DNA of 64,000 nt from Halomonas alkalisoli (GTDB taxonomy: Bacteria > Pseudomonadota > Gammaproteobacteria > Pseudomonadales > Halomonadaceae). A model generated the notes under the pieces. That model searched no databases and was not told the origin of the DNA. It worked only from the letters and a program-made list of their open reading frames with translations. The position numbers and the translations under genes were made by a program. Numbering within the stretch: the stretch's first letter is position 1; each line of letters opens with the position of its first letter. The stretch is from contig NZ_JAKCMI010000044.1 in assembly GCF_021412585.1 (NCBI RefSeq), forward strand, positions 62,001-126,000, in the 5' to 3' direction. This document shows positions 50,442 through 58,517 of this stretch, one piece after another.

Positions 50442-50483
50442 CAATGGATTCACTATCCGATGATGGTTCAGGAGGTTGCCGGG

Positions 50484-53000
50484 ATGACGGATCAAACGAC
50501 TCCTTCACGTCGCTACTGGTTGGGTGGCAAGCGCGCCGCCGAGCAGGATCGGTTCTTTCGTGACGCGCTCGATCCGCTGGGGTGGAAAGTCGGCGATGAC
50601 GAACAGTGGGATGCCGGCTGGTACACCGGGATGCCGGATCCCGCCCAGTTCAAGAAGGTATCCCCCGAGCGCAAGCTCAATCACTACCCCGGCAACAATG
50701 CGCTCACGGTCAAGAGTCGCCTCCACGATACGCTCCTGGCGGTGAGGGATCGTGTCGCCCAATCCTTCGGTACGGCGGCCACATCGCGGCTGGCCTTCTT
50801 TCCCCGGGTCTACTCCATGCCGGAGGACTATCATGACCTCCAGCAGACGGCATTGTCCCATCCCGAGAAACGCTGGATTCTAAAGCCCAAGAATGCCTCC
50901 AAGGGCAAGGGCATTCGTGTGCTGCGTGATGCGGCGGATACGCCACTGGAGGCCAATTGGATGGTCCAGGAGTATCTTGCCAATCCGCACACCATTCGTG
51001 GCCACAAGTATGTCCTGCGCCTCTACGTGCTGGTGGCCTCCATCCAGCCGCTGCGGCTATATCTCTACCACCAGGGTTTTGCCAAGCTGGCATCGGAGCC
51101 CTACGACCCCAACGACATGGACAACCCGTTCAGTCAACTGACCAATCCCGACATCAATGCGCTCAATACCTCGGCGGAGATTCCCGTCGAGTTCATCGAT
51201 CTGCACCGCTATCGGCAGTGGCTGCGCGAGCAGGGCCATGACGATGAGCGTCTTTTTGCCCAGATCCACGACCTGGTGACACTGACCGTGATCGGCGCCA
51301 CGGATGCCATTCGCCGGCGCACGGCGCAGGTCGGTGCCGACCCGCAGGGGTGCTATGAGCTGCTGGGGCTCGACTGCATGGTGGATGATGCCCTGAAGCC
51401 CTGGATACTCGAATGCAACCTCAGCCCTTCGCTGGGTATCTGTGCCGAGCCAGAGAATGGCGGCCTCGTCGAGGCAGAGGTCAAGGGGGGGCTGGTGAAG
51501 GACATGGTCTCGCTGGTGGGGATCGACAACCCGGCCGTGGCGGCCAGGTCGGCGGAGGTGGCGCGTAGGGGAGTGGCGGCCGAACTCGCCCGCGACGCAC
51601 AGGACGAGGAGGCTCGCGCCGGCGGTTTTCTGCGCCTCTTCCCCAGTGCCGAGCCGGAACGCTACCTGCCTTTCTTCACCCTGCCGAGCCTCGCCGACAT
51701 GCACCTGGCCGATGGTCTCGCGGGGCAGCCTCTCCTACGGCCGGTGCTGACGGCCTGGCAGGTGTCGGAGGTGCTCGATGAGGATCAGCTTGCCCTCTAT
51801 GCCACGCACACCGGACGCTACTACCGCCTGAACGATAGCGCAGCCCTCATCTGGCTGCTGGCGACCGAGGGATTCGACCCGGACGCCATTGTCGATCAGC
51901 TGTCACGGGCCGGCGAGGCTTCAGGAACCGACGCCGAGCCGCGGCCCGATCGACAGGAACTGCGCCGTCATGTCTGGGACTGTCTGTCGGAGTGGTGCCG
52001 CGAAGGGTTGCTCAGGCAGCGTGGCGCACAGGACGATGGGGCGCTGGTCCCTGTCGAAGTGGCCAGCGACGCGAGCGTGGCCCCGTCCTGCCAGCCCATG
52101 CGCCTGGCTTGTGGCGGCAGGCAGTGGATTCTCCACACCGACAGTGCGCCGGCACTGTCGCGCCTCTCTGCGCTACTCTACAGGCAGCTCACGCCGCTTC
52201 AGGAGGGTGACGATACCGCCCGGTCTCCCCGGCTGGAAGTGCTGCGAGACGCTCCCGGCTACACCCTGGCGGCCGAAGGACGGGTTCTGGCCTCACGATT
52301 GACCCTGGCCGAATTGGGGCCCCAGGTGCTCGCCTATCTTGCTCGCCAGGCCCCTTCGAGCGAACAGCTTGTCATCGATGCCGGCCTGCTGACCACGCCT
52401 CAAGGCGCTGCCGTGATCTGTCTCTTTCCTCCCGACACCGGCGACGCCCAAGCCATGCTACGACAGTTTGCCAGGACGTTCAGGGTGACGAGGGGACTGC
52501 GGCTGGATGCCCTCACCCTTTCCCATGGCGAGCCACTGGGGCTGCCCATCGCACTGGACGGCCGGAATGGCTGTCTGGATGACAGTGAACCAGAGGGCTC
52601 GATGCCTGAGAGTGTCCAGGTGCGTGGGGTGATCCTCATGCGTCATCACCCCGAGGCTCTCGATGGCGCTGACGGCGAGCTGATGGCTCCCGACGCCGAT
52701 GACAGTGAGCTATCGATCCTCGATGCCCTGGGTGCCCTGTTGCCATCCTCCTTCACTGTCGGCGGTAAGCCCTTGTCAGGTGCCACCGTCACGGCGTTGT
52801 CCGAATGGTTGTCCCGGTGCGAGCGGCTCACTCTCCATGTGGCTAGTGACAGCCAGGCAGACCGGCGGACGACAGAGGCGCAAGGAGAGCCAGCGGACGT
52901 GTCGCTGAGCGAATCCCTGGAAAGGCGAGTAAGCGAGCTGCTTGGGCAACGTACAGCCTCTGCAAGAGGAAAGGCTGAGCAGGCAGAACTGCCGGGATGA
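50484..53000 (+). CDS. TTL-type ATP-grasp / PqqD-like / HprK-like fusion protein
   Basis: An 838-residue protein. Residues about 60-345 form a tubulin-tyrosine-ligase-type ATP-grasp domain: 'WILKPKNASKGKGIRVL' (131-147), 'VQEYLANPHTIRGHKYVLRLYVLV' (161-184) and 'LLGLDCMVDDALKPWILECNLSPSL' (293-317, with Asp297, Glu310 and Asn312 as metal ligands). Residues about 425-512 look like PqqD ('LYATHTGRYYRLNDSAALIWLLATEGFD'). Residues about 600-700 recall the HprK-like domain of PqqD-associated proteins, but the P-loop is lost ('CLFPPDTGDAQAM'). TTL enzymes add amino acids to protein ends; PqqD domains bind leader peptides. A peptide or protein modifier is likely. AGGAGG at 50470-50475 fixes ATG 50484. 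Confidence 0.8.
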   Translation: MTDQTTPSRRYWLGGKRAAEQDRFFRDALDPLGWKVGDDEQWDAGWYTGMPDPAQFKKVSPERKLNHYPGNNALTVKSRLHDTLLAVRDRVAQSFGTAATSRLAFFPRVYSMPEDYHDLQQTALSHPEKRWILKPKNASKGKGIRVLRDAADTPLEANWMVQEYLANPHTIRGHKYVLRLYVLVASIQPLRLYLYHQGFAKLASEPYDPNDMDNPFSQLTNPDINALNTSAEIPVEFIDLHRYRQWLREQGHDDERLFAQIHDLVTLTVIGATDAIRRRTAQVGADPQGCYELLGLDCMVDDALKPWILECNLSPSLGICAEPENGGLVEAEVKGGLVKDMVSLVGIDNPAVAARSAEVARRGVAAELARDAQDEEARAGGFLRLFPSAEPERYLPFFTLPSLADMHLADGLAGQPLLRPVLTAWQVSEVLDEDQLALYATHTGRYYRLNDSAALIWLLATEGFDPDAIVDQLSRAGEASGTDAEPRPDRQELRRHVWDCLSEWCREGLLRQRGAQDDGALVPVEVASDASVAPSCQPMRLACGGRQWILHTDSAPALSRLSALLYRQLTPLQEGDDTARSPRLEVLRDAPGYTLAAEGRVLASRLTLAELGPQVLAYLARQAPSSEQLVIDAGLLTTPQGAAVICLFPPDTGDAQAMLRQFARTFRVTRGLRLDALTLSHGEPLGLPIALDGRNGCLDDSEPEGSMPESVQVRGVILMRHHPEALDGADGELMAPDADDSELSILDALGALLPSSFTVGGKPLSGATVTALSEWLSRCERLTLHVASDSQADRRTTEAQGEPADVSLSESLERRVSELLGQRTASARGKAEQAELPG

Positions 53001-53058: not shown

Positions 53059-53250
53059 TCACTCCTGCTCATCCCGGGCGGCAGGCTCGAAGCGCTTGCC
53101 GGCCTCGTGCAGCATGTCGAACTGCCGATTGCACTGGCTGCAGGCGCCACACATCGCCAGGTGGACGCGTAGCGAGAGGCGTTCCTGCCACACCAGGGGG
53201 CGATCCAGGCGTTGCGACATCAGCTCGGTGGCGCGTCGGCACATGATCAT
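53059..53250 (-). CDS. Small zinc-finger anti-sigma factor (zf-HC2)
   Basis: A 63-residue protein consisting of the zinc-finger module alone: Cys4, then His30-x3-Cys34-x2-Cys37, plus Cys40 ('HLAMCGACSQC'). 'CRRATELMSQRLDRPLVWQERLSLRVH' is typical of short anti-sigma proteins next to ECF genes. The start overlaps the sigma stop by four bases (53247-53250). No membrane segment is present, so the signal is probably cytoplasmic. It ends 58 bp from the TTL-PqqD stop, convergent. Confidence 0.85.
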   Translation of the reverse strand: MIMCRRATELMSQRLDRPLVWQERLSLRVHLAMCGACSQCNRQFDMLHEAGKRFEPAARDEQE

Positions 53251-53831
53251 GGCGTTTCCTCCGTCAGCCAGCCCTGTTCGATGCAGGCCCTCAGCCGCAG
53301 GCGGGCCCGGTGCAGGATGACCCAGCAGTTGTTCTCCCTGATGCCAAGCTCGCGGCAGATCTCCTCGGTCGATAGCCCCATCAGTTCACGCAGCGAGAAG
53401 ACGCGTGCCACGTTGTCCGGCAGGGCGATCATGCAGGCATCGAACACCTGCCAGAATGTCTCGCTCTCAAAGGCTGCCTCCGGCTCCCCCCAGCTGGCGG
53501 GACGCGCCTCCTTGACCCAACTGCCGTTCCGGCGGAACTGACGGTCGATGGCCTCGTCATCGGCCTCATCTTCCAGGGGTTGCCAGGTGCCCTGGCGCTT
53601 CTGGGCCCGCATGGTATCGAGAATCTTGAACTTGAGGATGCCGAAGACCCAGGTTTCATAGCCGGATCGTCCGGAAAAGCTATCCTGATTCTCGATGGCG
53701 GCTTCGAGGGTGTCCTGGACCGCATCTTCGGCCTGGGCGTGATTGCGTAGATGCAGGCGCGCGAAGGAGAGCAGCCGAGGCCGAACGGCAGTCAGACGCT
53801 GCATGCGGTCGTCTAGCGGCGGGATGCTCAC
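53247..53831 (-). CDS. ECF-like RNA polymerase sigma factor
   Basis: A 194-residue sigma factor: region 2 at about 15-80 ('LLSFARLHLRNHAQAEDAVQDTLEAAIEN' and 'ETWVFGILKFKILDTMRAQKR'), region 4 at about 130-185 ('LPDNVARVFSLRELMGLSTEEICRELGIRENNCWVILHRARLRLRACIE'). It starts at GTG 53831 with AAGGA seven bases before. It is of a different subgroup from the sigma factor at 2843-3472, and no GGAAC/CGTC promoter was seen in front of it. The pair's targets are unknown. Confidence 0.88.
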   Translation of the reverse strand: MSIPPLDDRMQRLTAVRPRLLSFARLHLRNHAQAEDAVQDTLEAAIENQDSFSGRSGYETWVFGILKFKILDTMRAQKRQGTWQPLEDEADDEAIDRQFRRNGSWVKEARPASWGEPEAAFESETFWQVFDACMIALPDNVARVFSLRELMGLSTEEICRELGIRENNCWVILHRARLRLRACIEQGWLTEETP

Positions 53832-57830: not shown

Positions 57831-58517
57831 ATGCCACAGCATGACGACAAGCGCCGCAGGCTGCTAGGGCGTCTCAGTCAACAGCTCGCCTATACGGCCC
57901 CGGTACTGGCGCTGATGGCTGGCGGTGCCGCGCTGCACGCCACGACGATCAATGCATCGACCGACTCAGGCTACGGGCCTGTTTCCGAAGAGACGCTGCT
58001 GCTGGCCAGCAACCATGCCCAAGGTGAGGCAGAGGCAGAGGCGGAAGGAGAAGCAGAGGCCGAAGCCGAGGGGGAGGCAGAAGCCGAAGCAGAGGGTGAA
58101 GGTGAAGCAGAAGCCGAAGGTGAAGCAGAGGCTGGCGATCGCTCGGCGGTAGAGCGCCCCGAGGGTTATACCCCAGGGTATAGCGAGGACGGTGAAAACG
58201 CCCCGGCGCTGCTGGCACTGGGCGAAGAGCTGTTCAACGACCCCAGCTTGAGTACGACAGGCCTCTCCTGCGCCTCCTGTCATGCGGGAGATACAGGCTA
58301 CCTGGAGACCTTCGAGCAACCCTATCCGCATCGGGTGGCAATGGGAGAGAATCTCTTTGGCATGGAAATGGTGCATGCCGACGAAATGGTCCAGATGTGC
58401 ATGGTCAGCCCCATGGCCGCCGAGGCGCTGGGGTGGGACAGCGAGGAGCTGGCGGCACTCTCGGCCTATGTGGTCGAAGTGCAGCGGCGCTATGCCGGCG
58501 AACCCCATAATCTCTGA
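57831..58517 (+). CDS. Acidic-repeat cytochrome c
   Basis: A 228-residue protein with GGAGGT seven bases before ATG 57831. A basic N-terminus and hydrophobic segment (about 17-38) suggest export. Residues 65-101 are a pure Ala/Glu/Gly repeat (units of E-A-E-A-E-G). One haem site Cys147-x-x-Cys150-His151 ('CASCH') follows in a small class I cytochrome domain; methionines near 'GMEMVHADEMVQMCM' could be the sixth ligand. It could carry electrons in the periplasm; the acidic spacer may extend it from the membrane. Its partner is unknown. Confidence 0.82.
   Translation: MPQHDDKRRRLLGRLSQQLAYTAPVLALMAGGAALHATTINASTDSGYGPVSEETLLLASNHAQGEAEAEAEGEAEAEAEGEAEAEAEGEGEAEAEGEAEAGDRSAVERPEGYTPGYSEDGENAPALLALGEELFNDPSLSTTGLSCASCHAGDTGYLETFEQPYPHRVAMGENLFGMEMVHADEMVQMCMVSPMAAEALGWDSEELAALSAYVVEVQRRYAGEPHNL
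58024..58133 (+). repeat. Low-complexity GAGGC/GAAGC repeat inside the cytochrome gene
   Basis: Repeated hexamer- to 18-mer-like units (gaggcagaggc, gaagcagaagc and variants) encode the Ala-Glu-Gly tract. Slippage here could change tract length between strains without a frame change when whole 6-base units move. Confidence 0.8.

Follow-up and report, generated by a model that had tools for sequence, protein, structure and literature searches.

The window analysed here, a stretch of 64,000 nucleotides from Halomonas alkalisoli (contig NZ_JAKCMI010000044.1, positions 62,001 to 126,000), carries at 50484-53000 on the plus strand the gene of a putative ligase in which a tubulin tyrosine ligase-type (TTL) ATP-grasp domain is followed by a PqqD-type domain and an HprK/PEPCK-like domain without a P-loop. 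The PqqD-type domain is a putative leader-binding RiPP recognition element (RRE), RiPPs being ribosomally synthesized and post-translationally modified peptides. On the same strand, 4.8 kb downstream of the ligase gene, lies the gene of a candidate substrate (57831-58517), whose product of 228 amino acids consists of a leader, a Glu-rich tail, and a heme domain. The pairing of the enzyme with dedicated precursors of this build is well supported.

The ligase and its three domains

A single open frame spans 50460-53000 (+). The ATG at 50484, with AGGAGG 8 bases 5' of it, is likely to be the start rather than 50460 and would give a protein of 838 amino acids; Pfam positions are counted here from 50460 as residue 1, and catalytic residues from 50484. 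The AlphaFold model of the whole protein has a mean predicted local distance difference test (pLDDT) value of 84.5. Pfam recognizes TTL at residues 71-332 (E 1.8e-53, 182 bits against a curated cut-off of 20.1) and PqqD at residues 445-518 (E 5.2e-7, 30.3 bits against 23.4), and the C-terminal part is named by no Pfam model.

The catalytic domain (50670-51455, +, by the Pfam span) is closest in sequence to the tubulin polyglutamylases TTLL6 (E 2e-39) and TTLL7 (E 9e-35) among solved proteins, with weaker matches to TTLL11 (E 1e-18) and TTL (7e-11 at best). TTLL6 is also the first match by fold when the enzyme model is compared by Foldseek (E 5e-28, TM score 0.82 by target length), and the ATP-grasp residues of the two proteins align. 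In an alignment of 72 enzymes, made up of the window protein and those from 71 of 79 related loci, K134, G141, G143, R179, D297, E310, and N312 are identical throughout. Left out of it were three loci with frames of more than 900 amino acids (L060, L061, L064) and five with broken or cut frames (L083, L085, L096, L105, L108). Two positions are of interest with regard to the chemistry. K140 (50901-50903, +) aligns with the glutamine taken as Gln180 of TTLL6, where the family has Lys in 47 and Arg in 25 proteins, hence a basic residue in all 72, and L313 (51420-51422, +) aligns with the histidine taken as His362, where Leu is found in 72/72. Both TTLL6 residues were located by noting where wild-type and engineered TTLL6 differ in sequence; the PDB titles of these TTLL6 entries concern initiation and elongation analogues. 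According to excerpts of PMC7970040 and PMC12366701, Gln180 is the main determinant of chain elongation in TTLL6, and Arg at position 180 together with Ile at position 362 favours gamma-linked initiation. With Lys or Arg and Leu at these positions in all 72 proteins, the bacterial enzyme would therefore be expected to branch at Glu side chains rather than to elongate existing chains. The donor would probably be glutamate, as judged from the nearest relatives only.

The PqqD-type domain (51741-52019, +) and the C-terminal domain (52053-52853, +) were additionally modelled as a separate segment (51696-52853, mean pLDDT 88.0). The PqqD part is nearest to the lasso-peptide RREs TbiB1 and TfuB1, both of which have been solved with leaders (VIA Z 12.5 over 84 of 85 residues). 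For the C-terminal domain, similarity to HprK is evident from an hhalign comparison with three P-loop-bearing PqqD-HprK-like fusions (probability 98.7, E 3e-16, 300 columns), which themselves score 62-67 bits against HprK_rel_A and so stay below the 200 bits of its cut-off. The model of this domain matches PEPCK with a VIA Z of 9.7 over about 244 residues, and by Foldseek the C-terminal model finds PEPCK and HprK structures at E 0.004-0.05, that is, above the 0.001 mark. In the hhalign alignment, GNPGAGKT of the first fusion pairs with PPDTGDAQ of the window enzyme, and the P-loop pattern GxxxxGK[S/T] occurs in none of the 72 aligned enzymes. Since the Walker A P-loop is gone from 72/72, the C-terminal domain is not classed as a kinase.

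An earlier reading of this DNA from its letters alone (the sequence-only reading) had proposed a TTL-type ATP-grasp ligase with intact metal ligands, joined to a PqqD-like middle domain and a dead HprK-like domain. This architecture is borne out: TTL and PqqD exceed their curated cut-offs and are corroborated by fold, the catalytic residues are invariant, the profile searches of the middle and C-terminal parts do find PqqD and HprK similarity, and the loss of the P-loop extends across 72 proteins instead of being confined to the window. Nor do the homologues always sit in a known unrelated pathway. The further proposal, that of an enzyme tagging a peptide or protein, fits both the domains and the precursors described below; the tagging activity itself would be a prediction from sequence.

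A scan of genome contigs matched 110 stretches, of which 89 were confirmed and 80 kept, giving 79 distinct loci from other genomes. They belong mainly to Halomonas, Billgrantia, Vreelandella, and Marinobacter, along with several alphaproteobacterial groups; the closest named relative is Billgrantia montanilacus, with 96% identity. Among 117 genomes, 36 possess the enzyme, the window's own included. A sample of 398 genomes of the phylum holds the full-length enzyme in three and, counting weak partial matches, in nine, where at most two enzyme and at most 15 leader candidates were scored per genome, so that some may have been missed. The six additional matches (G133, G183, G275, G279, G281, G326) are weak or partial, not full-length, and were rejected as enzymes; the three of the weak or partial matches that were read (L147, L148, L150) are the PqqD-HprK-like fusions that keep their P-loops. 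A TTL domain (E up to 1e-10) was found in two of 299 sampled genomes of the phylum, both times within this same enzyme family, and the catalytic domain may therefore have been exchanged with eukaryotes, by transfer in either direction.

Apart from this, one genome contains remnants of a second enzyme copy in a frame of 261 amino acids (G019:C1:919162-919863) besides the full enzyme (main copy, L006). At L083, L096, L105, and also L009, the enzyme is split over two frames that overlap or adjoin each other, which may reflect sequencing error or decay. A second DNA match of 40 bases within the window's own genome was taken as chance.

Precursors with a signal-like leader and a Glu-rich tail

The product of 57831-58517 (+) begins with the leader or signal-like segment MPQHDDKRRRLLGRLSQQLAYTAPVLALMAGGAALHATTINAS (57831-57959, +), which matches profile A1, built from 54 leaders (leader match, E 5e-21). 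It contains YTAP (57891-57902, +), a YxxP motif of the type bound by lasso- and PqqD-type RREs. The Glu-rich tail (58017-58133, +) comprises 39 amino acids, namely 18 E, 14 A, 6 G, and 1 Q, and a search with the tail pattern gave 6 matches against a mean of 0.00 in shuffled sequences. Its DNA is repetitive, yet Ala, Gly, and Glu are each encoded by several codons, and this use of codons suggests selection at the protein level. The heme-binding motif CASCH (58269-58283, +) lies in a domain with a heme-domain profile match (Pfam SoxA-TsdA_cyt-c, E 1.1e-9). A second leader of the same genome is found on another contig (L112:1501-1788) and belongs to a short precursor, which is followed by a DinB-like gene.

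Clustering of the ORFs (open reading frames) around the 79 enzyme loci revealed that a small Glu-rich protein adjoins the enzyme gene. In these precursors a signal-peptide-like leader, usually with YxxP, is followed by an E/A/G tail rich in Glu and sometimes by a heme domain; leader and tail are matched by no Pfam or NCBIfam model above its cut-off. The consensus of 54 leaders is MTxxxEKRRxLLxRLSRxLGYTAPALALVASGxAFQAVA, which, as judged by eye, resembles a Sec signal peptide in its charged start, hydrophobic core, and AxA. Past position 60, the tails of 67 short precursors are composed of 40.5% E, 24.8% A, and 23.9% G. A run of at least 20 E/A/G/Q/D/P residues is found in 51 of 79 distinct tails, and in 23 of the 79, K, S, T, and C are all missing from residue 61 onward, the others having some. 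Of the 84 distinct members of the precursor cluster, 65 have YxxP ahead of the tail, versus 65 of 1132 other neighbour ORFs, where the cluster was chosen without asking for the motif and the control ORFs were scored over their first 70 residues. This count was made in place of an earlier one on 79 leaders (YxxP 64, VxxP 8, HxxP 4, FxxP 1, other 2), which was biased, the selecting pattern itself having required a Pro behind such a residue. A passage of PMC12710340, a survey from 2025, gives W/Y/LxxP as the recognition motif of RREs of the FusE, McjB, PqqD, and StsC type, with YxxP for lasso peptides. The motif of the precursor leaders is of the kind read by PqqD-type RREs, which would be in line with binding of the leader by the ligase.

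The module of leader and tail precedes nothing, a SoxA/TsdA-like domain, or a P460-like domain, and this occurrence of one module before varied ends argues that leader and tail form a single functional unit. The SoxA/TsdA-like passengers have CxxCH and a later Cys-Met pair, invariant in 32/32, of which only the pair is informative, CxxCH having been the selection criterion for the cytochrome rows; one of 33 such rows (L049) was dropped for a chance CxxCH within an over-extended ORF. The P460-like passenger with CxxCH comes from two Pararhodobacter genomes, and its match is weak, lying below the Pfam cut-off. L200 and L201 have this second heme passenger attached to a tail of the kind described, its CxxCH being close to the C-terminus. 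At L101, a frame similar to the P460-like passengers (11694, minus strand) is interrupted by the contig end.

The precursor gene directly adjoins the enzyme gene in 73 of the 79 loci. It is short and located downstream on the same strand (up to 700 bases) in 58 of these, of the cytochrome type and divergent upstream in 12, and short and convergent in three. As to the other six loci, the precursor is farther off within the locus in L069; L033 has a cytochrome-type precursor 4.7 kb downstream, with another contig of its genome giving a second leader match; the genome of which L085 and L108 are both fragments has two leader matches elsewhere; and L099 and L100 have one leader match each elsewhere in the genome. 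A first precursor pattern had given 71/79 loci and a second one 70/79, and the final count is the second pattern combined with the ORF cluster, which is linked partly by low-complexity tails. Length and codon-position GC, instead of a gene finder, served to pick the neighbour ORFs, and counts of neighbours are therefore approximate.

On the basis of these results, two statements of the sequence-only reading need revision. It had seen no standard RiPP genes nearby, and the window does hold a non-standard precursor-like gene at 57831-58517; that no partner was noticed is explained by the location of the short precursor on a separate contig from the enzyme. It had further considered a cellular protein as the substrate, in place of which a dedicated exported protein is the likelier one, given a precursor next to the enzyme in 73/79 loci.

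Enzyme and leader also occur together across genomes. The leader is found in 39 of the 117 genomes, that is, in all 36 with the enzyme and in 3 of the 81 without it (Fisher p 5e-27, relatedness ignored). In the phylum sample, strong leader matches come from 3/398 genomes, the same three that have the full-length enzyme, and the two of them outside the genus carry both precursor types. The tally would be 5/398 with the weak leader matches of G406 and G490 (E about 5e-4), but these ORFs read by eye as aminotransferases and were taken as chance.

A probable leader-guided ligase and the alternatives

From this scenario, it is fairly likely that the enzyme is a leader-guided amino-acid ligase that modifies the Glu side chains of exported tails, probably with glutamate. 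The PqqD/RRE domain would capture the YxxP-type leader of the dedicated precursor in the cytosol, with the HprK-like domain, devoid of its P-loop, providing a platform for binding or a rigid spacer. At the expense of ATP, the TTL domain would then attach an amino acid, glutamate being the most likely one, to side chains of Glu in the disordered E/A/G tail, in the manner of eukaryotic TTLLs on tubulin tails and of TTLL5 on the Glu-Gly repeats of RPGR. Eventually, export of the modified protein would follow, with the anionic tail free or on a c-type cytochrome. We lean slightly towards a wider formulation, in which the tubulin tail code would have its counterpart in bacteria: a TTLL, guided by a leader, would build branched chains of glutamate (or glycine) on tails and cytochromes that are exported, in an unrecognised RiPP-like class that uses one leader-plus-tail module on different heme proteins.

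Several points weigh against this interpretation. The passage of a branched chain through Sec is unexplained. TTLL7 has Met and Arg at the positions of Gln180 and His362, and a residue rule derived from TTLL6 may not transfer to the bacterial family. The support from the leader motif amounts to YxxP in 65/84, not in nearly all leaders; of the 19 without it, 15 show V, H, or F where Y would stand and four have no such motif in the examined stretch (two of these, L090 and L093, are cut so that the leader falls outside of it), and the wider [YVHF]xxP is common anyway, occurring in 446 of 1132 control ORFs. In the test on 117 genomes, all positives belong to a single genus, the genomes compared are relatives of each other, and the enzyme and precursor genes lie side by side; the leader profile, derived from the precursors of enzyme loci, also gives an advantage to genomes with the enzyme. 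Finally, three genomes have a leader and no enzyme match, namely G002 (79% complete), G031 (86%), and G008 (100%), the last of which keeps a cytochrome-type precursor with an intact tail. That precursor (L183, 8735 onward, plus strand), from the same genus, may mark a recent loss of the enzyme, a divergent enzyme, or a tail that stays unmodified.

The same pair of enzyme and substrate could use another donor, as would a glycylase in the manner of TTLL3/8/10, and this is an unlikely but appreciable alternative. An excerpt of PMC7970040 describes the TTLL family as comprising glutamylases, glycylases, and tyrosine ligases, and the precursor tails hold 24% Gly; the solved relatives nearest in sequence and fold are, however, three glutamylases (TTLL6, TTLL7, TTLL11), with TTL coming after them, in a comparison that included no solved glycylase. 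Addition to the C-terminal carboxyl of the tail, without branching at side chains, is quite improbable. TTLL11, as stated in part of PMC11574253, adds Glu to C-terminal carboxyls, and the short precursors do end within their Glu-rich tail, but the cytochrome-type precursors hold the tail in the middle of the protein, out of reach of such an enzyme, and the glutamine of the elongases is replaced by K/R in 72/72.

Two further explanations are very improbable. A graspetide-like enzyme, cross-linking Glu with Ser, Thr, or Lys of the precursor, would be alike in outline, since there, too, an ATP-grasp enzyme meets a small dedicated precursor with a Glu-rich core (PMC8939145, in part); against it stand the assignment of the domain to TTL by profile and fold and the composition of the tails, nearly a third of which (23/79) have no K, S, T, or C, with long E/A/G/Q/D/P runs in 51/79 and E/A/G/Q only in that of the window. 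The same low probability attaches to the Glu-rich proteins being mere companions in an operon or stress regulon while the ligase acts on something else. Adjacency alone is no proof of contact, genes for extracytoplasmic function (ECF) sigma factors, zf-HC2, DUF302, and DinB-like proteins recur nearby as well, and G008 keeps the precursor without the enzyme. Set against this, the pairing persists through varying placement of the precursor (downstream, divergent, convergent, distant), the window's own genome keeps the enzyme and the short precursor though they lie on different contigs, and RREs of this class read motifs such as that of the leader.

Known systems and neighbouring genes

The preferred reading, a leader-guided ligase acting on exported Glu-rich tails, combines parts of known kinds. 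With TTLL6, and with TTLL5 acting on RPGR, the enzyme shares the TTL ATP-grasp core and its common catalytic residues; it differs from the eukaryotic TTLLs in being bacterial, in recruitment by PqqD/RRE, in a target that is apparently exported, in the HprK-like domain without P-loop, and in the lack of tubulin. In both systems recruitment of the target would fall to a separate region, which for TTLL5 and RPGR is reportedly the basic domain of RPGR. RPGR ORF15, by part of PMC13052805 a Glu-Gly repeat glutamylated by a TTLL, resembles the precursor tails as an acidic, Glu/Gly-rich target and, by analogy, may be regarded as their nearest known counterpart. The RREs of the lasso B1/PqqD type, TbiB1 and TfuB1, are alike in fold (Z 12.5) and in the YxxP-type motif of the leader, whereas in the window system the RRE shares one chain with a TTL ligase, the leader is at the same time a signal-like peptide, and a long E/A/G tail makes up the core. 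HprK-related kinase A (TIGR04352) and its PqqD-fused relatives likewise have a PqqD-like part and then an HprK-like domain; the family described here is without the P-loop in 72/72 and has the TTL ligase in front.

Graspetides are similar in that an ATP-grasp enzyme is accompanied by a dedicated precursor, but they represent another ATP-grasp branch, and many tails of the present system are without cross-link partners. The DUF2063/DUF2282 systems (bufferins), whose precursors are not known to have a Glu-rich tail, include no TTL enzyme, unlike the window system. What they share with it is an RRE-containing protein paired with Sec-signal-bearing precursors, as given in part of PMC12710340. SidJ of Legionella is a further case of bacterial protein glutamylation; in the excerpt of PMC6858067 its polyglutamylation is ascribed to a protein-kinase-like fold acting as an effector, unlike the TTL enzyme. 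As in RiPPs, there is a dedicated, gene-encoded precursor with leader and core, and removal of the leader in the RiPP sense would be expected from its signal-like nature. Among the matches listed from open-licence PMC papers, none describes the fusion enzyme or its precursors, and none brings together an RRE, a ligase of the TTLL type, and Glu-rich proteins that are exported.

If the proposed function is correct, TTLL-type modification of tails would extend beyond eukaryotes, with a defined leader and a small substrate testable in E. coli, and RRE-guided enzymes would gain amino-acid ligation on exported cytochromes. The system would then serve as a simple model of how TTLLs handle repeats rich in Glu and Gly, among them RPGR ORF15 with its alterations in retinal disease. 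Many strains of Halomonas, Vreelandella, and Marinobacter would carry a hidden modification, missed by proteomics unless the added mass is searched for.

Beside the enzyme gene and convergent to it are a zf-HC2 anti-sigma-like gene (53062-53253, −; Pfam zf-HC2, E 1.6e-8) and an ECF sigma factor gene (53247-53831, −; Pfam Sigma70_r2/r4_2), both linked to the enzyme by association only. The sigma ORF cluster (cluster 3) recurs in 43/79 loci, including the near-identical neighbour locus L033, and a cluster of small ORFs (cluster 5), zinc-finger-like by eye, in 29/79. The upstream genes for an aldehyde dehydrogenase, an aminotransferase, a threonine-dehydratase-like, a cyclodeaminase-like, and an HAD protein, and the ABC transporter downstream, were rejected as parts of the system, their clusters recurring in only 9-24 of the 79 loci; flanking genes were named by eye, HAD by Pfam. 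A DinB-like cluster (cluster 2) is located downstream of the enzyme in 50/79 loci, and in the window's own genome a DinB_2-like gene (L112, 1878-2441) follows the short precursor; it is possibly a third component. Altogether, the recurring neighbours (ECF sigma factor, zf-HC2, DUF302, DUF3047, and DinB-like genes) would, speculatively, point to a setting of envelope or redox stress. The exported tail may serve as an anionic brush, a metal buffer, or a docking surface for cytochromes. A gene near the precursor or the enzyme that reads by eye as a thiosulfate sulfurtransferase (L186, 5577-6374, minus strand) belongs to a cluster present in 34/79 loci (cluster 4), and together with the SoxA/TsdA-like heme domain such a neighbour hints at sulfur chemistry.

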